Below, in pieces: positions 1 to 29,500 of a stretch of DNA of 32,072 nt. The notes under the pieces were generated by a model. That model saw only the letters and a list, made by a program, of their open reading frames with translations, was not told the DNA's origin and made no database searches. The first letter of the stretch is position 1. Each line of letters starts with the position of its first letter. The stretch is from the NCBI GenBank assembly GCA_013002225.1, contig JABDKL010000012.1, forward strand, positions 1 through 32,072, in the 5' to 3' direction. Both the position numbers and the translations under genes were made by a program. This DNA is from Winogradskyella sp. Its GTDB lineage: Bacteria; Bacteroidota; Bacteroidia; Flavobacteriales; Flavobacteriaceae.

Positions 1-20
1 AGGTAATTCAAAATATTGTA

Positions 21-35
21 TCACATTTAATGTGA
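21..35. repeat. 15-bp palindrome upstream of the pheA promoter
   Basis: TCACATT-T-AATGTGA is a perfect 7+1+7 palindrome about 50 bases upstream of the predicted -33 box of the aromatic operon. It could be an operator for a dimeric regulator, or the tail of an upstream terminator, though no clear T-run follows it. The rest of 1-81 shows nothing recognisable. Confidence 0.35.
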
Positions 36-81
36 ATTCTTTAAAACTTCGATGTAATATTCAAAAAAGGTTTTTAACAAT

Positions 82-111
82 TTTGAATTGTAAAAATATT
101 AGTTACATTAG
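82..111 (+). promoter_or_regulatory. Bacteroidota-type promoter of the aromatic operon
   Basis: TTTG at 82-85, an 18-base spacer, then TACATTAG at 104-111. This matches the Bacteroidota primary-sigma consensus (TTTG, about 19-21 bases, TAnnTTTG) at seven of eight positions in the -7 box. Transcription would start near 116-118, just ahead of the leader peptide ATG at 128. The start site is inferred, not observed. Confidence 0.6.
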
Positions 112-127
112 CCACATAATTGTAACA

Positions 128-178
128 ATGAATACATCTAGAACATATTTTAACTGGTTTTATTTCTTTTTTAGCTAA
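128..178 (+). CDS. Phe/Tyr/Trp-rich leader peptide (attenuator)
   Basis: A 16-codon ORF encodes MNTSRTYFNWFYFFFS and then TAA. Within residues 7-15 there are five Phe (codons at 149, 158, 164, 167, 170), two Tyr (146, 161) and one Trp (155), so eight of nine residues are aromatic. It lies about 10 bases after the predicted start site and 44 bases before an intrinsic terminator that precedes prephenate dehydratase. This is the layout of classical pheL-type leaders: ribosome stalling at Phe codons would decide which RNA hairpin forms. The stop codon is 5 bases before CGAGACT (184-190), so a ribosome releasing at the stop would cover that arm, while one stalled in the Phe run would largely leave it free. 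Too short for usual gene finders. The peptide itself probably has no function. Translation is inferred. Confidence 0.75.
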   Translation: MNTSRTYFNWFYFFFS

Positions 179-183
179 AAGAA

Positions 184-228
184 CGAGACTGAGTATGTTT
201 TATTTAAAATATAAATTATAAAGTCTCG
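184..228 (+). promoter_or_regulatory. Predicted antiterminator helix
   Basis: CGAGACT at 184-190 is perfectly complementary to AGTCTCG at 222-228, which is the 5' arm of the terminator hairpin. The two structures are therefore mutually exclusive, as the 2:3 and 3:4 pairings are in trp/phe attenuators. AACATA at 142-147 in the leader ORF can pair with TATGTT at 194-199 and may act as an early pause or competing hairpin; that last pairing is weaker evidence. Confidence 0.6.
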
Positions 229-248
229 ATGCAATCGAGGCTTTTTTT
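221..248 (+). terminator. Intrinsic terminator / attenuator before pheA
   Basis: AAGTCTCGAT (221-230), loop GCA, ATCGAGGCTT (234-243): ten base pairs with one G-U, running into seven consecutive T. The T-run ends three bases before the pheA ATG at 252. A terminator this close to the start codon, downstream of a promoter and leader ORF, is best read as a conditional attenuator. It could instead end transcription from a gene upstream of the window, but the aromatic leader and the complementary arm at 184-190 argue for attenuation. Confidence 0.75.
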
Positions 249-251
249 ATT

Positions 252-1079
252 ATGACAAAACCAATTGCCATACAAGGAATTAAAGGGTCATTTCATCACG
301 AAGTGGCTCAAAAATACTTTAGTGATAATAGTGAAGTCGTTGAGTGTTTGTCTTTTGATAACGCTGTAGAGCGTTTAATGCTGGCAGAAGCGGACTATAC
401 TGTAATGGCGTTAGAGAATTCTATTGCTGGATCTATAATACCTAATTATGCACTTATTGACGCGCATAATCTTAAAATTATAGGCGAATATTATCTGGAC
501 GTTCAACATAATTTAATGGCGCTTCCAGAACAATCAATTAAAGATATTACAGAAGTGCGCTCACATCCGATGGCTTTATTACAATGTAAAACCTTCTTTA
601 AGAATAACCCAGACATAAAGCTTATTGAAACAAAGGATACAGCAGAAGTTGCTAAACAAATATACGATCAAAAAATAAAGGGTATTGCTGCCATAGCAAG
701 CAAAACTGCAGCAAATATGTACAAGCTAAATGTTTTAGCAGAAAGTATTCAATCAATTAAAAACAATGAAACGCGCTTTGTTATTGTTAAGCGTAAAAAA
801 CATAAGATTGAACGAAAAGCACTTAATAAGGCGTCACTAAAATTTGAATTAGATCATAAACGTGGTAGTTTAGCTACAACACTCAATGTAATGAGTGATT
901 GTAAATTAAACCTAACCAAAATTCAATCTTTACCAAAAATAGATACACCTTGGAAGTATGCCTTTTTTGTTGATGTGACCTTTGATAGCTATGAGGATTA
1001 CAAAAAGGCAATATCAATTATTCAGTTAATGGCAGAGAATTTTAAAGTGTTAGGCGAATATAAAAATGCAAGATTATGA
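252..1079 (+). CDS. pheA: Prephenate dehydratase
   Basis: Converts prephenate to phenylpyruvate, the last dedicated step of Phe synthesis, in the cytoplasm. The N-terminal dehydratase domain (about residues 1-185) opens with the GIKGSF motif and carries the catalytic ETRF stretch near residue 171. A C-terminal ACT domain (about 193-275) follows. This is the monofunctional form at normal length, with no chorismate mutase domain; that activity is fused to DAHP synthase three genes downstream. The ACT motif that is ESRP in many Phe-sensitive enzymes reads QSLP here, so allosteric Phe binding may differ. First gene of a four-gene operon; its TGA overlaps the next ATG (ATGA). Likely regulated by the leader and terminator directly upstream. 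Confidence 0.95.
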   Translation: MTKPIAIQGIKGSFHHEVAQKYFSDNSEVVECLSFDNAVERLMLAEADYTVMALENSIAGSIIPNYALIDAHNLKIIGEYYLDVQHNLMALPEQSIKDITEVRSHPMALLQCKTFFKNNPDIKLIETKDTAEVAKQIYDQKIKGIAAIASKTAANMYKLNVLAESIQSIKNNETRFVIVKRKKHKIERKALNKASLKFELDHKRGSLATTLNVMSDCKLNLTKIQSLPKIDTPWKYAFFVDVTFDSYEDYKKAISIIQLMAENFKVLGEYKNARL

Positions 1080-2221
1080 TTCAAGTAGCCGACCGTCTAA
1101 AACAGGTTGAAGAATATTATTTTTCTAGAAAATTAAGAGAAGTAGCATTCCTTAAATCACAGGGTAAACCAATAATTAATCTAGGTGTTGGTAGTCCGGA
1201 TTTAGCACCTCCGTTTAAAGCATCCATGCTCTTAAGGGATAGTTTGGAAGATGAAGGGGCAAATAAATATCAGAGTTATCAAGGTTTACCAGAACTTAGA
1301 GATGAAGTAGCGAATTTTTATAAATCACATTATAATGTGAGTCTTAGCGGGCAAACTGAAGTTTTGCCTTTATTAGGTAGTAAAGAGGGTATAATGCATA
1401 TATCAATGGCATTTCTCAATAAGGGCGATGAAGTACTTGTGCCTAATCCTGGATATCCTACTTATGGCGCTGTGGCAAAACTGGTTGAAGCCCAACCAGT
1501 GCTATATGATCTTACAGAAGATAATAATTGGCTGCCAGACTTTATTGCTTTAGAGCGACTGGATCTTTCTAAGGTAAAAATTATGTGGGTTAATTATCCG
1601 CACATGCCAACAGGTACCAATGCCCCAAATAAATTTTACGATGAGGTAATTGCGTTTGGGAAAAGGCATAACATTCTTATAGTTAATGATAATCCGTATA
1701 GTTTTATTTTAAACGATAAACCTATTAGTATTATGCGCTATAACAATGCTAAGGACGTTTGTTTAGAACTAAACTCACTTAGTAAAACCTTTAATATGGC
1801 AGGATGGAGAGTCGGTATGTTAATAGGTAATTACGAGTATATCAGTGCGGTCTTAAAAGTAAAAAGCAATATGGATTCAGGAATGTTTTATGGTATACAA
1901 AAAGGAGCCATCGAAGCATTACAATGTTCGGCAATGTGGTTTGTAAGCTTAAATAGTGTATACGAAGTAAGGAGAGCGTTAATTTGGCAGTTGGCAGATG
2001 CGCTTAATTGTACTTACGACAGGGATGCCACAGGGTTATTTGTATGGGCAAAATTACCACCACATCTAAAATCAGAGGAATTTACGGATTTAGTACTCAA
2101 AGAACATTCAATTTTTATAGCACCTGGAACGGTATTTGGATCCAATGGTGAAGGTTATGTTCGTTTTTCGTTATGTGAGCCCGAAGAAGTAATTGAAGAA
2201 GCAATAGCAAGAGTGAAATAA
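1076..2221 (+). CDS. Class I/II PLP aminotransferase, aromatic pathway
   Basis: Fold-type I aminotransferase of normal length (381 residues). Visible landmarks are GVGSPDL (37-43), PNPGYPTY (123-130), YPHMPTG (174-180), NDNPYS (204-209) and the PLP lysine K237 in SLSKTFNMAGWR. The carboxylate-binding Arg is in the VRFSL stretch near the C-terminus. The position between pheA and tyrA, with a 4-base overlap with pheA and two bases before tyrA, indicates it transaminates phenylpyruvate and 4-hydroxyphenylpyruvate (or prephenate) to finish Phe and Tyr. The family also contains aspartate and LL-diaminopimelate aminotransferases, so substrate is inferred from context only. Confidence 0.9.
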   Translation: MIQVADRLKQVEEYYFSRKLREVAFLKSQGKPIINLGVGSPDLAPPFKASMLLRDSLEDEGANKYQSYQGLPELRDEVANFYKSHYNVSLSGQTEVLPLLGSKEGIMHISMAFLNKGDEVLVPNPGYPTYGAVAKLVEAQPVLYDLTEDNNWLPDFIALERLDLSKVKIMWVNYPHMPTGTNAPNKFYDEVIAFGKRHNILIVNDNPYSFILNDKPISIMRYNNAKDVCLELNSLSKTFNMAGWRVGMLIGNYEYISAVLKVKSNMDSGMFYGIQKGAIEALQCSAMWFVSLNSVYEVRRALIWQLADALNCTYDRDATGLFVWAKLPPHLKSEEFTDLVLKEHSIFIAPGTVFGSNGEGYVRFSLCEPEEVIEEAIARVK

Positions 2222-2223
2222 CT

Positions 2224-3075
2224 ATGAATACTATTTTTATTATAGGAGTTGGGTTAATTGGAGGGAGTTTTGCTTTAGATATTAAGAAAATTTACCCGGA
2301 GTCAGCCATTTACGGCATAGATAATAGAGAAGCCCATTTAAATGAAGCCATTAAATTAGGAATTATAGATCAAAAAGCTGTTCTCAAAGATGTGGCCAAT
2401 GCAGACCTGGTAATTGTTGCAGTTCCTGTAGATGCAACGCTAAGTGTCTTGCCCGATGTCCTGGATAATGTGTCAGACCAAACGATTGTTTTTGATGCAG
2501 GTTCAACAAAAGAAGATATATGTTTAACAGTAAAACAGCACCCTAAAAGAAGAAATTTTTTAGCTGCCCATCCAATAGCAGGCACGGAGTTTTCCGGGCC
2601 TGGTGCAGCCATTTGTGGACTTTTTAACAATAAAACTAATATTATTTGTGAGGTCGAGGATACCGCCTTTAAGCTTCAGGAAAAAGCCTTGAAATTGTTT
2701 TCAGAATTGGGGATGCGTATTAGATATATGAATCCCAAGGCGCACGACAAGCATATTGCCTATGTGTCGCATCTCTCGCATATTAGTTCGTTTATGCTTG
2801 GCAAAACGGTTATTGAAAAAGAGAAAAATGAACGCGATATTTTTGATATGGCAGGTAGTGGATTCGAAAGTACTGTGCGGTTAGCAAAGAGTTCTCCTGC
2901 AATGTGGGCGCCAATTTTTGAGCAAAACAAATCTAATGTAATTGAAACTTTAGAAGAGTATATTAATAACTTAAAAGATTTTAAAAAATTGATGGAGAAT
3001 GAAGATTTTGAAGCAGTTTATAAAGAAATGCAAGCAACCAATCACATAGCCGACATATTAAACGGGATACAATAA
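2224..3075 (+). CDS. tyrA: Prephenate dehydrogenase
   Basis: Oxidatively decarboxylates prephenate to 4-hydroxyphenylpyruvate for Tyr synthesis. The N-terminal Rossmann domain begins with GVGLIGGS (residues 8-15) and contains VAVPVDAT and DAGSTK. The AHPIAGTE segment near residue 116 carries the expected catalytic His. The helical dimerisation domain follows, with HLSHISS. At 283 residues it lacks a C-terminal ACT domain, so no Tyr-sensing domain is evident. It starts two bases after the aminotransferase stop and is followed after 28 bases by DAHP synthase-chorismate mutase. Confidence 0.94.
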   Translation: MNTIFIIGVGLIGGSFALDIKKIYPESAIYGIDNREAHLNEAIKLGIIDQKAVLKDVANADLVIVAVPVDATLSVLPDVLDNVSDQTIVFDAGSTKEDICLTVKQHPKRRNFLAAHPIAGTEFSGPGAAICGLFNNKTNIICEVEDTAFKLQEKALKLFSELGMRIRYMNPKAHDKHIAYVSHLSHISSFMLGKTVIEKEKNERDIFDMAGSGFESTVRLAKSSPAMWAPIFEQNKSNVIETLEEYINNLKDFKKLMENEDFEAVYKEMQATNHIADILNGIQ

Positions 3076-3103
3076 AAATTGAAGAAAAAAGATTAATAGC
3101 AAA

Positions 3104-4186
3104 ATGGAAAATAAAAAAGAATTAAGAAACTGGTTAGATGCATTTAACTTAAACCATCCATTGGTAATAGCTGGACCTTGTAGTGCAGAAACGGAAGAGC
3201 AGGTTTTGAAAATTGCGCATCAGCTTAAGGATAGTGATGCAACTGTATTTAGAGCAGGTATATGGAAACCAAGAACCCGACCTGGCAATTTTGAAGGTGT
3301 TGGAGCCTTAGGGTTAAAATGGTTACAAAAGGCAAAGGAAGAAACAGGAATGATGATTACCACAGAAGTGGCTAATGCTAATCATGTGGAATTGGCCTTA
3401 AAACATGATGTCGATATCCTTTGGATTGGAGCTAGAACTACAGTAAGTCCGTTTATAGTTCAGGATATTGCAGATGCCTTAAAAGGAACGAATAAACCTG
3501 TCCTAATTAAAAATCCAATTAATCCAGACTTGTCATTATGGCTTGGTGCTGTAGAGCGTTTCTACACTAATGATATTAAAAATTTAGGTGTTATACATAG
3601 AGGATTTTCAACTTACGAAAAAACCCGTTACAGAAATAATCCGGAATGGCAGATTGCCGTAGATCTGCAAAATCGTTTTCCTGATCTACCCTTAATATTA
3701 GACCCATCACATATTGCAGGAAAACGGGATATTATTTTCGATTTAAGTCAGACTGCATTAGATTTAAATTACGACGGATTAATGATAGAGACACACCATG
3801 ATCCTGATAATGCATGGAGTGACGCGGCCCAGCAAATAACACCTGCAGAATTAATAAAATATACCGAAGATTTAAAAATCAGAAAAGAAGTAGGTGACGA
3901 TGTTAGATTTAAAAATAAAATTAATACGTTAAGAACCCAAATCGATGTTATTGATCACCAATTAATAGAGATGATGGGTAAGCGCATGAATGTTGCTGAT
4001 GATATTGGGAAGCTAAAAAAGGAGCATAACGTAGCAGTTTTACAATCTAAACGTTGGAATGAGATTTTGGGAAAAATGATCTTACAAGGCGAAGAGAAAA
4101 ACCTGAGTGAAGAATTTATACTTAGAGTATTTAAAGCCATTCACCAAGAATCGATTAATCATCAGGAGAAAATAATTAATCACTAA
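3104..4186 (+). CDS. Bifunctional DAHP synthase / chorismate mutase
   Basis: A fusion of 360 residues. Residues about 1-262 form a type I-beta (KDO8P-synthase-like) 3-deoxy-7-phosphoheptulonate synthase, with GPCSAE, WKPRTRPGNFEG, IKNPINPD, HRGFST and DPSHIAGKR motifs. Residues about 265-350 form an AroQ-type all-helical chorismate mutase, beginning around KINTLRTQIDVIDHQL. It catalyses the first committed shikimate step and chorismate to prephenate, the shared precursor of PheA and TyrA. In this fusion class the mutase domain is generally the feedback-sensing module. Last gene of the operon; an intrinsic terminator follows at 4201. The gene is often called aroF/aroG in related genomes; no single symbol is firm. 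Confidence 0.94.
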   Translation: MENKKELRNWLDAFNLNHPLVIAGPCSAETEEQVLKIAHQLKDSDATVFRAGIWKPRTRPGNFEGVGALGLKWLQKAKEETGMMITTEVANANHVELALKHDVDILWIGARTTVSPFIVQDIADALKGTNKPVLIKNPINPDLSLWLGAVERFYTNDIKNLGVIHRGFSTYEKTRYRNNPEWQIAVDLQNRFPDLPLILDPSHIAGKRDIIFDLSQTALDLNYDGLMIETHHDPDNAWSDAAQQITPAELIKYTEDLKIRKEVGDDVRFKNKINTLRTQIDVIDHQLIEMMGKRMNVADDIGKLKKEHNVAVLQSKRWNEILGKMILQGEEKNLSEEFILRVFKAIHQESINHQEKIINH

Positions 4187-4200
4187 TAGATTTTAATAGA

Positions 4201-4228
4201 AAAAGGCTCGCGAAATGCGAGCCTTTTT
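4201..4228 (+). terminator. Intrinsic terminator of the aromatic operon
   Basis: AAAAGGCTCGC (4201-4211), loop GAAAT, GCGAGCCTTTT (4217-4227): an 11-bp perfect stem followed by T. Its T-run also supplies the -33 box of the next promoter. Confidence 0.9.
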
Positions 4229-4257
4229 GTTTCATTAAACAATATTAACCATCTTTG
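4226..4257 (+). promoter_or_regulatory. Promoter of rsgA, possibly leaderless
   Basis: TTTG (4226-4229), 20-base spacer, CATCTTTG (4250-4257), one mismatch to TAnnTTTG. The rsgA ATG lies only five bases after the -7 box, so transcription would begin at or next to the start codon. Confidence 0.6.
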
Positions 4258-4262
4258 TACTA

Positions 4263-5213
4263 ATGACAGGCACAGTATATAAATCTACCGGAAGTTGGTA
4301 TACCGTAAAAACAATGAATGGTAAATTCTACGAATGTAGAATTAAAGGCCGATTTAGGTTGGCAGGTATAAAAAGTACTAATCCAATTGCAGTTGGAGAT
4401 AAGGTTGAGTTTCAATTAGAGACAAAAAATAATACGGAGACTGGTGTTATTAATAGAATTGAAGAACGTAAGAACTATATCGTTCGAAAGTCTGTAAATT
4501 TATCGAAGCAAACCCATATAATTGCTGCCAATATAGACCAGGTCTTTTTGCTGGTAACAATTGATAATCCACCTACATTCACAAGTTTTATAGATCGATT
4601 TTTGGTTACAGCTGAAGCGTATGCCATTAAAACAGTTTTGTTGTTCAATAAGATCGATACCTATAGCGATGAAAACTTGCTTGAAGTAAAATACATGTCT
4701 AGTATTTATAGACAAATAGGCTATGACTGTATAGAGATCTCCGCTACTACTGGTGAGAATATCGATAAGGTGAAAACTCTAATGACAGGTAAGGTTAGTA
4801 TGTTTGCAGGCCATTCGGGTGTGGGTAAATCTACCTTGGTAAACGCAATTGAGCCCTCATTAGAACTTAAAACAAAAGCTATTTCTGAGCAACATATGCA
4901 GGGACAGCATACAACTACATTTGCAGAGATGTTCGATCTAAGTTTCGATGCTAAAATAATCGATACTCCAGGTATTAAAGGTTTTGGTGTCGTAGATATG
5001 GAAAGAGAAGAGGTTGGTGATTACTTTCCTGAGTTTTTTGCTTTAAAACATAATTGTAAATTTAATAATTGTTTGCATTTAAAAGAACCCAAATGTGCGG
5101 TTAAAGAAGCCTTGGAAAACGATGAGGTATCTTATTCTAGATACAGGAGTTATATTCAAATTTTAGAAGGTGAAGATGAACATTACAGGACCGACAATTG
5201 GGATAACATGTAG
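4263..5213 (+). CDS. rsgA: Ribosome small subunit-dependent GTPase RsgA
   Basis: Circularly permuted GTPase that assists late 30S maturation. N-terminal OB-fold (about 1-75). The GTPase motifs come in permuted order: G4 NKID (129-132), then P-loop GHSGVGKST (183-191), then G3 DTPG (234-237). A C-terminal zinc finger follows with C265, C270, H272 and C278. Length 316 is normal. It stands alone between a terminator and dtd, with its own promoter upstream. Confidence 0.96.
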   Translation: MTGTVYKSTGSWYTVKTMNGKFYECRIKGRFRLAGIKSTNPIAVGDKVEFQLETKNNTETGVINRIEERKNYIVRKSVNLSKQTHIIAANIDQVFLLVTIDNPPTFTSFIDRFLVTAEAYAIKTVLLFNKIDTYSDENLLEVKYMSSIYRQIGYDCIEISATTGENIDKVKTLMTGKVSMFAGHSGVGKSTLVNAIEPSLELKTKAISEQHMQGQHTTTFAEMFDLSFDAKIIDTPGIKGFGVVDMEREEVGDYFPEFFALKHNCKFNNCLHLKEPKCAVKEALENDEVSYSRYRSYIQILEGEDEHYRTDNWDNM

Positions 5214-5271
5214 TGCATATGTTCTATTCCTTTAATAAATATTATACTATTATTTTCTTACATTCAAGGTC

Positions 5272-5724
5272 ATGAAAGTTGTTATTCAAAGAGTCTCCGA
5301 GGCTAGTGTTACGATAGAAAATAGACGGGTAGCAGCAATTTCTAATGGAATACTAGTTCTATTGGGAATTATTGATGAAGATTCAAAAGATGATATTGAT
5401 TGGCTTTGCAACAAAATAGCGAATCTGCGCATATTTCCAGATGATAATCAGGTCATGAACAAATCTTTGTTAGACGTAAACGGCGACGTTATTGTGGTTA
5501 GTCAATTTACCCTTTATGCAAGCACGAAAAAAGGTAATAGACCAAGTTATATTAAAGCGGCTAAACCAGATAAAGCTATACCACTCTACGAAAATTTTAA
5601 TAAAGTACTGCAGACTGTTTTGGGGAAGCCTATACAAACAGGAGAATTTGGTGCAGATATGAAAGTGCAACTAATTAATGATGGTCCTGTCACCATTGTA
5701 ATCGACTCTAACAACAGAGTCTAG
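5272..5724 (+). CDS. dtd: D-aminoacyl-tRNA deacylase
   Basis: Hydrolyses D-aminoacyl-tRNA, chiefly D-Tyr-tRNA, and also mischarged Gly-tRNA-Ala, in the cytoplasm. The start MKVVIQRVSEASV is typical, and both signature motifs are present: SQFTLY (about residues 78-83) and the cross-subunit GPVTI-like loop (NDGPVTIVID) near the C-terminus. Length 150 is normal. It follows rsgA by 58 bases on the same strand, so the two may be cotranscribed. Confidence 0.96.
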   Translation: MKVVIQRVSEASVTIENRRVAAISNGILVLLGIIDEDSKDDIDWLCNKIANLRIFPDDNQVMNKSLLDVNGDVIVVSQFTLYASTKKGNRPSYIKAAKPDKAIPLYENFNKVLQTVLGKPIQTGEFGADMKVQLINDGPVTIVIDSNNRV

Positions 5725-5803
5725 AATTAAAATCTTCAGGCGTTACATTTTATGATTTTGTTTTTTGATTATTTGTGTTCATTACGGTTTGTCGTATTAA
5801 ATT

Positions 5804-5852
5804 GAAAATCAAATAGCCGTAAGGTAATTATTACAATTTTTATTTGATTTTC
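5804..5852. repeat. Nested inverted repeats over the 5900 gene promoter
   Basis: GAAAATCAAAT (5804-5814) and ATTTGATTTTC (5842-5852) are a perfect 11-bp inverted repeat. A second palindrome, GTAATTATTAC (5824-5834), sits inside it. The right arm covers the predicted -33 TTTG at 5843-5846, so the element could be an operator, or a stem if transcribed from upstream. Confidence 0.45.
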
Positions 5853-5873
5853 TCTTAATCGTTTTTATATTGT
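5843..5873 (+). promoter_or_regulatory. Promoter for the DUF3857 gene at 5900
   Basis: TTTG (5843-5846), 19-base spacer, then TATATTGT (5866-5873), a fair match to TAnnTTTG. It places the transcript start near 5880. A TTG at 5870 that would extend the downstream reading frame by ten codons lies inside this -7 box, so the ATG at 5900 is preferred. Confidence 0.5.
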
Positions 5874-5899
5874 GCTTGCAAAATTCTAAAAATATCTTA

Positions 5900-7804
5900 A
5901 TGCCAAGATTAAAACTAGCCATTTCATTTGTCTTGGTGTGTGTCTCTTTGTTGTCCTTTTCACAAACCGATAGTCAATATATTTCACTGTTAATACCAGA
6001 CGAACTTAAGTCTAAAGCAAATGCAGTGGTAAGATATGAGAGTCAAATTGTAGAAATTCTAGATTATAATGAGATAAATATTAAAACCAGGCGCATTGTG
6101 ACGGTTTTTAACAAATATGGCGAAAACCGGGTAAATGCCATCGAAAGATATGATGGAAACAAGAAAATTATAGCGATTAATGCTCGGGTTTTTAATGAAT
6201 TTGGCAAAGAAATTAGAAAATTTAAAGAGAGAGATTTTGTAGATGTTAGTGCCGTGAGTGATTTTTCCATATACGAAGACGATCGTATTAAGTACATGGA
6301 TTATACGCCACTAAAATACCCATACACTGTTGAATATACATCTGAAGTAACGACAAGCACAACAGCCTTTTTTCCAGACTGGACACCGATTGATAGTTAT
6401 TTTGTGGGTATAGAACATTCAGAATATCAAATAATAAATACATTGGGAGTTGAGCTAAAAACTAAAAAAAAGAACTTTCAGGATTTTAATATAGAGGAGG
6501 TTTCAACTAATCATTTTATTGCAAAAAATATTGAAGGTCTAAAATATGAAGTTTATACGCCAGATCTATTTGAAATTGTTCCGCGCTTTAAAGTTGCGCT
6601 AAAGCGTTTTAATATGATGGGAGTCGATGGTTACAACGACGACTGGAAGACTTTTGGCAAATGGATGTATGATAAATTATTAATTAATACCGATATAATA
6701 CCACAATCTACAATAGATAAAGTTAAAGACTTAACCGTAGGTGTAGATGATAAAGTGGAGCGCGCTAAAATCGTATACAACTTTATGCAAGAGCGTACCA
6801 GATACATCAGTATTCAAGTTGGCATTGGCGGCTGGAAACCTATGCTTGCAAATGATGTAGATAGGCTGGGTTATGGCGATTGTAAGGGCCTTACTAATTA
6901 TACCAAAGCGCTTCTGGAAGCTGTAGATGTACCTTCTTATTATACCGTAGTATATGGTGGTAGCGGTATAAGATCATTAGATGCCGACTTTTCTTCCATA
7001 CAAGGTAACCATGTTATTTTGTGTGTGCCAAATGAAGAAGAACGTATATTTTTAGAATGCACCAGCCAGACGAACCCGTTCGGATTTACCGCTGGATTTA
7101 CAGACGACAGAGATGTGCTGCTTGTAAAACCAGAAGGTGGCGAAATTGTACACACAAAAATTTATGAGGCAGATGACAGCGTGCAAAATACCATTGCAAA
7201 AGTAGTATTAGATGATAATGGAGGAATTGATGCAGAAGTGAGTATAGAAACTACAGGGTTTCAGTATAATCTACACAAGGGCATTGAGAATAAGACAGAA
7301 AGAGATCAGCAATTACATTATAAAGATTATTGGGATAATATTAATAATATATCAATCGACGCTATTAAAATTGAGAACGATAAGGATAGAGTCGTTTATA
7401 AAGAAAGTGTAGAACTGTCTTGTAATAATTACGCTTCTAAAGCAGGGAACAGATTAATCTTGCAGCCCAATTTATTTAGTAAGGTAAGTAATTTACCTCC
7501 CAGATATCCAAGTAGAAATTTGGATTTTAAAATTGATCGTGCTTTTAAAGATGTCGATGAGTTTATAATAGAGTATCCTGCAACATTGAAAGTAGAGGCC
7601 ATGTCTACTGGCGAAGAGTTAACCACGAAATTTGGAAGCTATCAATTTAAGATTGAAGTTTTAGGCGGCAACAAAATAAAATATACCAGAACATATATGC
7701 TTAATAAGGGGCATTATGAAAAGTCAGACTATGAGGCATTTAGAACTTTTAGTAAAAAAATTGTAAAAAACGATAAAACTAAAATTGTACTTGTAAAAGT
7801 TTAA
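5900..7804 (+). CDS. Exported DUF3857 / transglutaminase-like protein, intact triad
   Basis: Predicted 634-residue protein starting MPRLKLAISF, with a signal peptide (hydrophobic core, then a likely cut after LLSFSQ, about residue 22), so exported to the periplasm or surface. An N-terminal DUF3857 domain (about 40-230) is followed by a transglutaminase-like core with Cys328 in GYGDC, His371 in GNHVI and Glu386 in LECTS (numbered from the ATG), then a C-terminal beta-rich region. The Cys-His pair suggests a cysteine protease or amidase-type catalyst. Substrate is unknown. Paralogous to the next gene: both end in similar segments (YEAFRTF... IVLVKV versus YKDFKAF... IVLVKA). Function not established. 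Confidence 0.85.
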   Translation: MPRLKLAISFVLVCVSLLSFSQTDSQYISLLIPDELKSKANAVVRYESQIVEILDYNEINIKTRRIVTVFNKYGENRVNAIERYDGNKKIIAINARVFNEFGKEIRKFKERDFVDVSAVSDFSIYEDDRIKYMDYTPLKYPYTVEYTSEVTTSTTAFFPDWTPIDSYFVGIEHSEYQIINTLGVELKTKKKNFQDFNIEEVSTNHFIAKNIEGLKYEVYTPDLFEIVPRFKVALKRFNMMGVDGYNDDWKTFGKWMYDKLLINTDIIPQSTIDKVKDLTVGVDDKVERAKIVYNFMQERTRYISIQVGIGGWKPMLANDVDRLGYGDCKGLTNYTKALLEAVDVPSYYTVVYGGSGIRSLDADFSSIQGNHVILCVPNEEERIFLECTSQTNPFGFTAGFTDDRDVLLVKPEGGEIVHTKIYEADDSVQNTIAKVVLDDNGGIDAEVSIETTGFQYNLHKGIENKTERDQQLHYKDYWDNINNISIDAIKIENDKDRVVYKESVELSCNNYASKAGNRLILQPNLFSKVSNLPPRYPSRNLDFKIDRAFKDVDEFIIEYPATLKVEAMSTGEELTTKFGSYQFKIEVLGGNKIKYTRTYMLNKGHYEKSDYEAFRTFSKKIVKNDKTKIVLVKV

Positions 7805-7866
7805 AAGGCTAATTAAAATTTTTAAAATATTTCTATAAATCAACCCAATCAATACTAACTATTTTT

Positions 7867-9900
7867 ATGAAAAAACTATTTATTATCTCCGCTTTTGTAT
7901 TAGGTCTTTTTAATCTCAGTGCTCAAGATTATGATTTTGGTGATGTGTCAAAATCCGAACTTCAGGAAAAATATCATCCTACAGATTCTTCTGCTAACGC
8001 AGCAATATTGTATAGAAATGTAGATATCTCATTTAATTATAGCGAAAATTTAGGTTTTGTACAGCAGAGAGAGGTACATGTGAGACTAAAAATTTATAAT
8101 AAAAATGGCTTCGATTGGGCTAATGAAAAAGTGTATTTATATAAAGGAAACGCTAATATTAGAGAAAACATTAAAGGAATAAAAGGTTTTACATATAACC
8201 TGGAGGGTAATAAAATTAAAAAAGATAAATTAAAAGGAAATGCGGTTTTTGAAGAAGAAGCCTCAGAAATGTACACCGTTAATTCCTTCGTTCTACCCAA
8301 TGTAAAAGAAGGTTCGGTGATAGAGTATACTTATACTGTAACTTCAACATCTCCTTTTATTGATGACCTGGAACTACAATTTAACATACCGGTAAATAAA
8401 TTGGTTGTAAATGTGGCGACACCTCAATTCTATAGATATAATAGATTTTTAAATCCAAAGGCAAAATTTTTGCCTAAAATTAACGAGAGGTCTAATGATA
8501 AACGAATAACAAGTACGACCAGAAACGTGGCAAAATTAGGTAGTGGTCGTGGCGGTGGTTTTCTTTCTTCTAGTTATGATATGAACGATACTGATTACAA
8601 GGAAATAATCCTCTTTCTTGATGAAGAAAATATACCAGCTTTAAAATCAGAATCATTTTCGGGTAACTTAGATAATTATAAAGCGAAACTTAGTTTAGAA
8701 TTATCAGCTATCCTAGATAATCGAAATATTGTAAGAAAATCATTCACTTCTACTTGGGATAAAGTGTCTAAAGCAATATTTGATAATGAAAATTTTGGAG
8801 GACAATTAAATAAACGCAGCTTCTTTAAGGAGGACTTAGAATCCCTATCTTCTGGCGTAGAGGACGATTTTCAGAAAGCATTTTTAGTAGAGAACTTTGT
8901 GAAGTCAAAAGTTAAATGGAATGGGATGTATGGTAAATATGCTCAAAAAGGGATAAGATCTGCATATAAAGAAGGTGAAGGTAATGTTGCCGATGTTAAT
9001 CTGCTGGTAGTCGCAATGCTACGTTCACTTGGCGTAAATGCAAATCCGGTTTTAGTAAGTACCAGAAATAATGGTATTCCTCTATTCCCGACTAGAGATG
9101 GATTTAACTATGTAATCTGTAGCGTAGAAAGTGATGGGGACTATGCCTTAATAGATGCCACAGAACCTTTTAGCACCAATAATGTATTACCACTTCGAGT
9201 GCTTAACTGGAAAGGACGTGTTTTTAAAGAAAACGGCTCGTCGAATTGGGTTAATTTAAAGCCAAATTCAAAATCTTCAGAAAGTACAATGCTTAATGTT
9301 ACACTTAATAATGACTTTACGGCTACTGGTAAAGTAAGACAAAATATTACGACCTACTCAGCACTTAAGTATAGACAGAAGTATACTGGTGTAAGTAAAG
9401 AAGACCATATAAAAGCTCTAGAAGCTGATAAAGGGGACTTAGTAATAAGCGAACTTAAATACGAAAACGACAAGGACATTACGCAATCTGTAAGAGTATC
9501 TTATGACTATAAAATGTCTGATGCTATTGATGAAATAGGAGAAAACATGTATTTTAATCCTATGTTGTTTATGGAGGCAAAGGAAAACCCATTTAAACTC
9601 GATGAACGTAAATATCCTATCGATTTTATTGTACCCTTTAAAGAAAACTACTTGGTTAACATTGCGTTACCAGAAGGCTATACTGTGGCCTCACTGCCAG
9701 AGCCACTGGCAATAGAATTTAAAGGAGGTGAGTCTAAATTTGTGTACTTTGCAAAAGTGAATGGCAAATATTTACAGTTAAAAGTAGAATTAGAGGTCAA
9801 CAATTCATTAATTCAACCTGTTGACTATAAAGATTTTAAAGCCTTTTTTGAAAAAACTGTAGAGAAGCAGGCCGAACAAATAGTCCTTGTAAAAGCATAA
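7867..9900 (+). CDS. Exported DUF3857 / transglutaminase-like protein, triad lost
   Basis: A 677-residue protein with a clear signal peptide (cut after NLSAQ, residue 20). The N-terminal DUF3857 domain (about 45-250) is followed by a transglutaminase-like fold. Where the preceding gene has GDC, this one reads GNVADVNLL (372-380); the His position is Tyr415 (FNYVI); the acidic residue D430 (LIDATEP) is kept. A catalytic thiol is therefore absent, and the protein is more likely a binding or structural paralog. It lies 62 bases after its paralog, probably in one transcript, and two bases before the MazG-like gene. Confidence 0.85.
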   Translation: MKKLFIISAFVLGLFNLSAQDYDFGDVSKSELQEKYHPTDSSANAAILYRNVDISFNYSENLGFVQQREVHVRLKIYNKNGFDWANEKVYLYKGNANIRENIKGIKGFTYNLEGNKIKKDKLKGNAVFEEEASEMYTVNSFVLPNVKEGSVIEYTYTVTSTSPFIDDLELQFNIPVNKLVVNVATPQFYRYNRFLNPKAKFLPKINERSNDKRITSTTRNVAKLGSGRGGGFLSSSYDMNDTDYKEIILFLDEENIPALKSESFSGNLDNYKAKLSLELSAILDNRNIVRKSFTSTWDKVSKAIFDNENFGGQLNKRSFFKEDLESLSSGVEDDFQKAFLVENFVKSKVKWNGMYGKYAQKGIRSAYKEGEGNVADVNLLVVAMLRSLGVNANPVLVSTRNNGIPLFPTRDGFNYVICSVESDGDYALIDATEPFSTNNVLPLRVLNWKGRVFKENGSSNWVNLKPNSKSSESTMLNVTLNNDFTATGKVRQNITTYSALKYRQKYTGVSKEDHIKALEADKGDLVISELKYENDKDITQSVRVSYDYKMSDAIDEIGENMYFNPMLFMEAKENPFKLDERKYPIDFIVPFKENYLVNIALPEGYTVASLPEPLAIEFKGGESKFVYFAKVNGKYLQLKVELEVNNSLIQPVDYKDFKAFFEKTVEKQAEQIVLVKA

Positions 9901-19579: not shown

Positions 19580-20209
19580 TTAAGTGAGATTGTGATGCTT
19601 AGCTTGATGAATCAGGTCTACAATATTAGTCACATTTAATTTTTTAAAAAGCCTGGCTTTATAAGTGCTAACTGTTTTTTCATTGATGTCTAGTTCCTGA
19701 GCAATTTCTTTGTTTTTACGTCCAATTGATAATAGTTTTAAAACTTCCACTTCTCTGGTAGATAATTTTTTAAACATACGACTTCTACTTCTTCGTGTAT
19801 CTTCATAGCGTAGATGCTTATCCATTTTCTCACTTAAATAAACTTCGCCTTGATTTATTTTCCGAATAGCTTTCTCAATAGTTTCAACATCTGCCGTTTT
19901 ATTTAAGTAACCAGATGCGCCAGCTTTTAAGGTGCTAATAGCATATATTTCTTCTGGCTGATGGCTAAGCATTAAAACATTCACAGATTTATTCTCTTTT
20001 TTAATAGCGCGTAAAGCTGTAATGCCATTTAACTCGGGTAAATCAATTTCACAAATTATGACATCGACATTTTGACGTCTTACAAATTCAAAAATTTCAA
20101 TTCCACTACCTAATTTACCTACAATTTTAAGATCTGGCTTGCTGCTTAAAAATAATTCTAACCCAGTTCTTACAATAGGGTGGCTGTCAACAATCAAAAT
20201 ATTTATCAT
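19580..20209 (-). CDS. LuxR-type response regulator with Glu at the phosphosite
   Basis: 209 residues: receiver domain (1-120), linker, and C-terminal LuxR/NarL HTH (about 145-205, LSTREVEVLKLLSIG... NEKTVSTYKARLFKKL). The receiver is atypical. The phosphoacceptor Asp position, four residues before the conserved Pro58, is Glu54 (CEIDLPEL), and the usual Asp-Asp pair at the first strand is Asp8-Ser9. Lys104 is kept. No histidine kinase is adjacent. Glu can mimic phospho-Asp, so the protein may be constitutively active or regulated by something other than phosphorylation. An inverted repeat lies upstream at 20242-20259. Asp56 could be an alternative acceptor, though its spacing is unusual. Confidence 0.88.
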   Translation of the reverse strand: MINILIVDSHPIVRTGLELFLSSKPDLKIVGKLGSGIEIFEFVRRQNVDVIICEIDLPELNGITALRAIKKENKSVNVLMLSHQPEEIYAISTLKAGASGYLNKTADVETIEKAIRKINQGEVYLSEKMDKHLRYEDTRRSRSRMFKKLSTREVEVLKLLSIGRKNKEIAQELDINEKTVSTYKARLFKKLNVTNIVDLIHQAKHHNLT

Positions 20210-29316: not shown

Positions 29317-29338
29317 AATAAGTATAGCGTTACCTAAA

Positions 29339-29404
29339 GGTCGGGCTTTCCGCTGTATCTTTTTTGAGAAAAATAAAAAAGGATGCCGCTTCAATCCCTA
29401 ACGC
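29339..29404 (+). repeat. Interspersed-repeat-like element in the paaE-paaA spacer
   Basis: GGTCGGGCTTTCCGCTG is followed by an imperfect hairpin, GTATCTTTTTT against AAAAAAGGATGC around 29354-29386, and CAATCCCTAACGC. I recall near-identical elements (CGGGCTTT...CAATCCCTAACGC) scattered through flavobacterial genomes. That is memory, not a search. It may act as a weak terminator or processing site within the paa transcript. Confidence 0.5.
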
Positions 29405-29409
29405 GCAAA

Positions 29410-29500
29410 GAGCTAAAGGCCAAGAGCCAAAAGCTAAATTATATTGAAAAAGAAAAATTAAGTTCAACAGCTAAAGGTGCAAAGCCAATAGCTTAAAGCC
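29410..29500 (+). repeat. Degenerate short tandem repeat before paaA
   Basis: Variants of AGCTAAAGGCCAA / AGCCAAAAGCTAAA recur at about 29411-29438 and again at 29468-29500 (CAGCTAAAGG, AAAGCCAATAGC, TTAAAGCC). The unit is roughly a purine-rich AGCYAAA. No ORF or promoter box is visible within it. Confidence 0.45.

Follow-up and report, generated by a model that had tools for sequence, protein, structure and literature searches.

The closest described system is the pheL–pheA attenuator of enterobacteria (Rfam RF01859), whose anatomy is a Phe-rich leader peptide followed by competing antiterminator and terminator structures upstream of pheA; the E. coli pheL peptide contains Phe and is not known to contain Tyr. 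More generally, trpL-type attenuators (trp, his, thr and ilv) have a run of cognate codons and three possible hairpins, referred to as 1:2, 2:3 and 3:4. The locus described here resembles both. It differs from pheL–pheA in that leaders of its type contain Tyr as constantly as Phe, and in that its operon also includes an aminotransferase, tyrA and DAHP synthase. It differs from trpL-type attenuators in general in being found in its own bacterial class, in having Shine-Dalgarno-like 4-mers upstream of the leader start in only 6/125 class-wide leaders, and in a stop codon whose position relative to the antiterminator arm spans 38 nt.

The literature that we found, as far as it was covered, only hints at such a switch in this group. 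For Flavobacterium psychrophilum, Guerin et al. (2021) report a structured pheA 5′ element that is present in other Flavobacteriaceae genera and has no Rfam hit, together with 'strong clues' for leader-peptide attenuation upstream of amino-acid operons; the sections of that text available to us describe for pheA neither a leader peptide, nor arms, nor a mechanism, nor a range beyond the family (PMC9723704). This is presumably the element described here. Leader-like ORFs in Bacteroides thetaiotaomicron are mentioned in general terms in the available part of another paper (PMC7366714), and a 2010 paper, again as far as available, states that before its own case no leader-peptide system had been shown outside Proteobacteria and Actinobacteria (PMC2965389). 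In the part of the literature covered we found neither the Phe/Tyr leader nor its arms described, nor any account of how far it extends through the class; the comparative studies of Vitreschak et al. (2004) and Lopatovskaya et al. (2010) may hold Bacteroidetes predictions. An earlier note on this DNA, made from the sequence alone, had suggested that such an attenuator might be new to Flavobacteriaceae. This needs narrowing, as the pheA 5′ element and the clues for attenuation were already reported, and what we did not find described in the sources covered are the Phe/Tyr leader and the arms.

The window is a stretch of 32,072 nucleotides from a Winogradskyella genome (G000; 2.99 Mb in 214 contigs, 95% complete, 4.3% contamination). 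The features of the leader region and of the operon are listed in Table 1.

Table 1. Features of the pheA leader region and operon in the window.
Feature	Position	Strand	Basis
Promoter-like pair TTTTG (81–85) and TACATTAG (104–111), 18-nt spacer	81–111	+	Direct reading
Leader ORF MNTSRTYFNWFYFFFS, stop TAA at 176–178, aromatic run at 146–172	128–178	+	Direct reading
1:2 hairpin (139–150/191–202, 156–161/185–190, 164–170/177–183)	139–202	+	Folding, alignment of relatives
Segment 2, antiterminator arm CGAGACT	184–190	+	Direct reading, relatives
Segment 3, AGTCTCG, common to antiterminator and terminator	222–228	+	Reading, folding, relatives
Intrinsic terminator (3:4), stem 220–244, T run 242–248	220–248	+	Terminator scan, folding
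pheA, prephenate dehydratase (PF00800)	252–1079	+	Domain match
Class I/II aminotransferase (PF00155)	1076–2221	+	Domain match
tyrA, prephenate dehydrogenase (PF02153, PF20463)	2224–3075	+	Domain matches
DAHP synthase fused to chorismate mutase (PF00793, PF01817)	3104–4186	+	Domain matches
Probable end-of-operon terminator, 13-pair stem	4200–4228	+	Terminator scan

The leader ORF has 16 codons (ATG AAT ACA TCT AGA ACA TAT TTT AAC TGG TTT TAT TTC TTT TTT AGC TAA), and eight of the nine codons in its aromatic run, which encodes YFNWFYFFF, are aromatic. The arm starts 14 nt from the last Phe codon, and the terminator has 11 pairs and a 3-nt loop followed by seven T; the T run ends three bases, and the stem seven bases, upstream of the pheA ATG. 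On direct reading, the leader ORF, arm, complement and terminator of the earlier note proved correct base for base. We take the promoter-like pair to be a predicted promoter of the Bacteroidetes −33/−7 type.

Folding of the leader region (112–251) gave −29.9 kcal/mol (z −3.9), with none of 200 shuffles equally stable. The terminator (215–248) folds at −12.4 kcal/mol (z −4.7) and the 2:3 arm hairpin (179–228) at −11.7 kcal/mol (z −4.0; 1 of 200 shuffles equally stable), and as these two energies are nearly equal, the outcome rests on kinetics. Besides the terminator, the fold of 112–251 contains a long hairpin in which leader bases 139–170 pair with 177–202, and which takes in most of the arm. 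The arm has two partners, the leader codons or segment 3, and segment 3 has two partners, the arm or 236–242; since segment 3 is used in both 2:3 and 3:4, these two pairings exclude each other. The earlier note had recognized both pairings and their mutual exclusion and had missed the 1:2 hairpin, with which the pairings make up the full trpL-type attenuator set. Both G of the window's Trp codon sit in the 1:2 helix, so that this codon may be kept for pairing.

Generic scans of the window are not informative by themselves: at positions 1–8000 there are four terminator-like sites against 4.3 expected, which is not above chance, and a sigma-70 promoter scan did not list 82–111. The case for the element therefore rests on conservation in relatives. 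The closest PheA relatives, mostly from Winogradskyella, are at most 79% identical to the window's protein, and a near set of 80 was drawn from the 115 matching family relatives, mainly from the more divergent among them, with the rest chosen by hand for spread. In 78 of these 80, pheA is preceded by an aromatic-rich leader ORF, and the remaining two loci (L032 and L041) are cut by a contig end, with arm and terminator visible by eye. Among the 79 near sequences, including the window, the run YYNWFYFFF is very constant, 75 have an identical spacing between run and arm, and a loose promoter motif, TANNTTN[GC], lies upstream of the leader ATG in 77; class-wide, TANNTT[TAC]G is present within 60 nt in 99/125 sequences as compared with 11% of shuffles. 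Ten loci (L020, L023, L026, L027, L031, L035, L038, L050, L055 and L059) have, by eye, 38–40 bases between the promoter motif and the leader ATG as against the usual ~16, and a small inverted repeat, e.g. TTCCAC..GTGGAA, between the two.

In an alignment of the 79 near sequences, 90.3% of cells are paired in the combined 1:2 and 3:4 structure. Changes on both sides of a pair occur in 84 cells as compared with 41 for shuffles, which take no account of kinship. For the 2:3 helix the paired share is 93.2%, and the helix is nearly invariant; it shows no double changes in these near relatives and a score not above shuffles, because the arm hardly varies there.

We then considered a wider range of genomes. 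PheA was searched in 197 genomes of the class (57 matched), 129 of the family (116 matched) and 98 of the order (56 matched), where we take the family to be Flavobacteriaceae and the class Bacteroidia. From the class search we used 29 loci besides the window's own and 20 of the other 27 (G119, G030, G005, G150, G024, G138 and G020 were left out), and from the order search 20 of the 56 matching genomes; upstream DNA was read for 149 pheA genes, 91 from the family and 58 from outside it. A leader was defined as an ORF with at least five aromatic residues in eight, within 300 nt of pheA, a limit that altered the choice of ORF at L127 and L128. Such a leader is present in 87/91 genes of the family and 40/58 outside (127/149 in total), as compared with 3.1% and 2.6% of dinucleotide shuffles, and with 4/91 and 3/58 reverse strands, respectively. 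It is absent in 4/91 family and 18/58 outside genomes; the 22 leaderless genes include four with PheA only 30–33% identical, two in 600-kb genomes, and some of the others seem, as an impression only, to directly follow another gene. Of the 127 genes with a leader, 125 have a terminator in the stretch from leader to pheA according to a scripted scan that demands a T run; at the other two, L114 and L122, inspection by eye shows a terminator-like hairpin. The leader peptides differ widely between groups, e.g. MTRNYFWNGFYFYFFFERGTGLF and MNRFSFTYYFYYFYFSRVKAGVCM, with the amino-acid class kept.

A search across the phylum matched 102/118 genomes, of which 20 were taken, one of them in the window's class. 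Among the 19 sampled from other classes, an aromatic leader was found only at L292 and L293. With identities of 45% and 43% to the window's protein, PheA at these two loci is nearer than at the other 17 (at most 37%), which suggests that gene and leader may have been transferred together.

The class-wide genes with both a leader and a scripted terminator form 125 rows (87 family, 38 outside), in which tests of strand swapping and of class switching stand in for the 2:3 covariation of near relatives. The best helix between spacer and terminator strand has a mean score of 18.7 with a genome's own strand, falling to 13.8 when the strand comes from another genome and to 11.4 when the spacer is shuffled; 96/125 spacers are at or below 5% of their own shuffles and 29/125 fail to beat 95%. 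When strands with a different start were swapped in, those of other genomes paired at least as well as the own strand in a mean of 17% of cases (median 10%). Arm and partner also switch class together: a GTCTC partner occurs with a GAGRC arm in 29 rows and a TCCC partner with a GGGR arm in 56, with two and zero exceptions, respectively (56/0/2/29; Fisher p 5e-21, uncorrected for kinship), in a table of 87/125 rows from which 38 without a clear arm class on one side were left out. The pairing of arm and leader codons, which underlies 1:2, has a mean of 0.70 as compared with 0.61 after synonymous recoding (using pooled, not per-genome, codon choices) and 0.48 after shuffling, and the own pairing is above the recoded one in 101/125 leaders, 78/87 within the family and 23/38 outside, where support for 1:2 is thus weaker.

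The attenuator interpretation of the earlier note, which it had tied to conservation in relatives, is borne out, since leader codons, arm pairing and terminator are conserved there. Its proposed alignment of Flavobacteriaceae pheA upstream regions gave the conserved leader ORF and paired changes in 1:2 and 3:4, but not covariation of 2:3 in near relatives. A conserved ORF in near relatives would also be seen if the leader encoded a stable small protein that happens to lie beside an unrelated constitutive terminator. Such an ORF would not account for arm and terminator changing together, nor for an ORF that in the 79 near sequences is 16 to 28 codons long and whose stop codon ranges from 8 nt before the arm start to 22 nt after it (7–8 nt before the arm in 29, at its end in 16, 9 nt past its end in 33, and further off in one), and we give this explanation hardly any weight.

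The distances within the leader are consistent with attenuation by a stalled ribosome. Counted from the first base of the final aromatic codon, the arm starts after 6–18 nt in every one of the 125 rows (median 13; 10–18 nt in the 38 rows from outside the family), even though the spacers are 35–76 nt long. Since ribosomes protect some 12 nt past the first base of the A-site codon, one stalled in the aromatic run would leave the arm entirely or almost entirely free. The stop codon is placed anywhere from 7 nt before the arm start to 31 nt after it, and is 24–56 nt upstream of segment 3 in 125/125 rows (median 30). If a ribosome positioned at the stop codon is taken to span −15 to +12, it would cover at least 3 nt of the arm in 109/125 leaders, sit downstream of the arm in 16, and never reach the partner strand. 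The idea that a ribosome at the stop has to cover the arm was dropped as a general rule, being true of the 109 and not of the 16; in these 16 leaders the ribosome at the stop would have to act by sitting between the arms.

Phe and Tyr codons each occur in 125/125 leaders and Trp codons in 71, with means of 5.3, 3.4 and 0.6 codons per leader, respectively. The earlier note expected the operon to be sensed mainly through Phe, with Tyr and Trp adding weight; Phe is indeed in every leader, but Tyr is equally constant. Since the operon contains both the Phe and the Tyr branches and all leaders contain both codons, a joint Phe/Tyr sensor fits leader and operon. Aminotransferase and tyrA accompany pheA in 80/80 near-relative loci, and the aminotransferase lies directly 3′ of it in 79/80 (with a 150-base limit). 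Of the 29 class loci, 21 have the aminotransferase as the first gene of the set 3′ of pheA, seven have DAHP synthase/chorismate mutase and one has tyrA. The window's pheA ATG is replaced by TTG in several relatives (L003, L006, L018, L025, L028 and others).

Codon-sensing attenuation predicts a cognate codon run for each operon, and this is seen at other operons. In the same genome, hisG is preceded by the His-rich MVFIQLHHHFHKIAQAR and a terminator-like hairpin (L232, G000:C73, hisG match at 20158), and trpE by the Trp-rich MKTILNHTWWWNFANLRS and a terminator-like hairpin (L233, G000:C33, minus strand). Among the 30 best-scoring family loci for each gene (of 37 matching genomes for hisG and 39 for trpE), at least three His in eight residues were found upstream of 29/30 hisG genes, no trpE and 0/91 pheA, and at least three Trp in eight upstream of 28/30 trpE genes, no hisG and no pheA; WWW leaders precede trpE in 28/30. 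Lowering the threshold to at least two Trp in eight gave one hisG and one pheA, and at least five aromatic residues in eight were found at 87/91 pheA, no hisG and one trpE. A scripted terminator follows all 29 hisG and 28 trpE leaders, and spacer–terminator pairing has means of 18.5 versus 13.4 for shuffled spacers at hisG and 17.0 versus 12.6 at trpE. The distance from codon run to arm is 9–20 nt at hisG and 19–22 nt at trpE, and the idea of a single distance for all operons was rejected on this account. A search with ILVD_EDD (dihydroxy-acid dehydratase) for a branched-chain operon gave no match in G000 at E 0.001, in a genome that is 95% complete, reflecting either an auxotroph or an assembly gap.

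These codon runs are unexplained by the rival readings, and bear in particular on nascent-peptide arrest, in which the aromatic peptide would stall the ribosome on a ligand, as in TnaC, independently of tRNA charging. The great constancy of YYNWFYFFF in near relatives is what such a peptide would show. Part of this local constancy fits 1:2 pairing, however, and class-wide the peptide differs while its amino-acid class stays, and hisG and trpE have cognate runs of their own; we regard arrest of this kind as very improbable.

We conclude that the element is very probably a ribosome-mediated transcription attenuator that senses the charging of tRNA-Phe and tRNA-Tyr, and Trp to a lesser degree, for the pheA–aminotransferase–tyrA–DAHP synthase operon, and we put the probability of this reading, which is drawn from sequence, at about 93%. 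It is based on the sequence and the pairings it allows, on conservation and paired changes, and on codon specificity and distances, and from these we infer a transcription start, translation of the leader, stalling and a change in termination. When aromatic amino acids are plentiful the ribosome would pass the aromatic codons and either cover the arm or sit between arm and segment 3, such that the terminator forms. When Phe or Tyr is short, the ribosome would stall within the run and break the 1:2 hairpin; the freed arm could then pair with segment 3, block the terminator and let RNA polymerase enter pheA. If the leader is untranslated, the 1:2 hairpin would hold the arm and the terminator would form. 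The sequence features of the trpL/pheL kind of attenuator are all found: a leader ORF with cognate codons, a terminator between it and the first gene, an exclusive 2:3 pairing kept by paired changes class-wide (with no covariation in near relatives), and a 1:2 protector hairpin that uses the leader coding region (weaker outside the family). The observation is real and well supported, and the switch is of a known kind; set against the literature covered, what is new is how widely it occurs, the double run of Phe and Tyr codons and the conserved distances.

The 3:4 hairpin could instead hide the pheA start region and so control translation and not transcription. The window's own stem, being so close to the start codon, would suit this, as would the 16/125 genes in which the stem is at most 10 bases away; the distance from stem to pheA varies, however, from 4 to 130 bases (median 21) in the 125 genes, and a hairpin that hides the start would stay close. 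The T run is not independent evidence here, as the terminator scan requires one. We consider translation control very improbable.

Amino-acid operons behind a terminator are typical T-box targets in Firmicutes, and the leader might accordingly be a T-box or riboswitch that binds tRNA or a metabolite, with the ORF incidental. In searches of the window, neither a T-box nor any other Rfam family reached its gathering score in the leader; a permissive search gave Phe_leader at 30 of 55 bits, the rest being weaker, and a T-box or riboswitch would leave the codon specificity unexplained, such that we judge it scarcely credible. Membership of RF01859 itself was also rejected on this score, obtained at 182–250. 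The one family to reach its gathering score lies elsewhere in the window, a Flavo-1 RNA (RF01705) at 29335–29418 on the minus strand, with 59.4 bits against 42.

A broader reading, which we favor with some reserve, is that across Bacteroidia aromatic and His biosynthesis is by default under leader-peptide attenuation, with a bispecific Phe/Tyr leader and two kept distances: about 13 nt from the last aromatic codon to the arm, and at least 24 nt from the stop codon to the terminator strand. Peptide and arm-to-stop distance would not be kept. The class-wide evidence covers pheA, with hisG and trpE sampled within the family. A leader-peptide switch works only if the ribosome is coupled to, and follows close behind, RNA polymerase, and these leaders thus offer ready-made coupling reporters for the group; the broader reading, if true, predicts tight transcription–translation coupling in organisms that start leaders almost without a Shine-Dalgarno sequence. 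The leaders also give a simple annotation rule for aromatic-amino-acid control in a large group that has received less study, and they illustrate that a stop codon can shift position without a change in the spacing between codons and arm.

A second pheA start was seen at a contig end of the same assembly (L002, G000:C163:3674–3913), with a protein 96% identical over 80 residues. Its attenuator is similar but different: by eye, TTG serves as the start and the stop immediately follows the arm. The locus perhaps comes from a related strain in the assembly.
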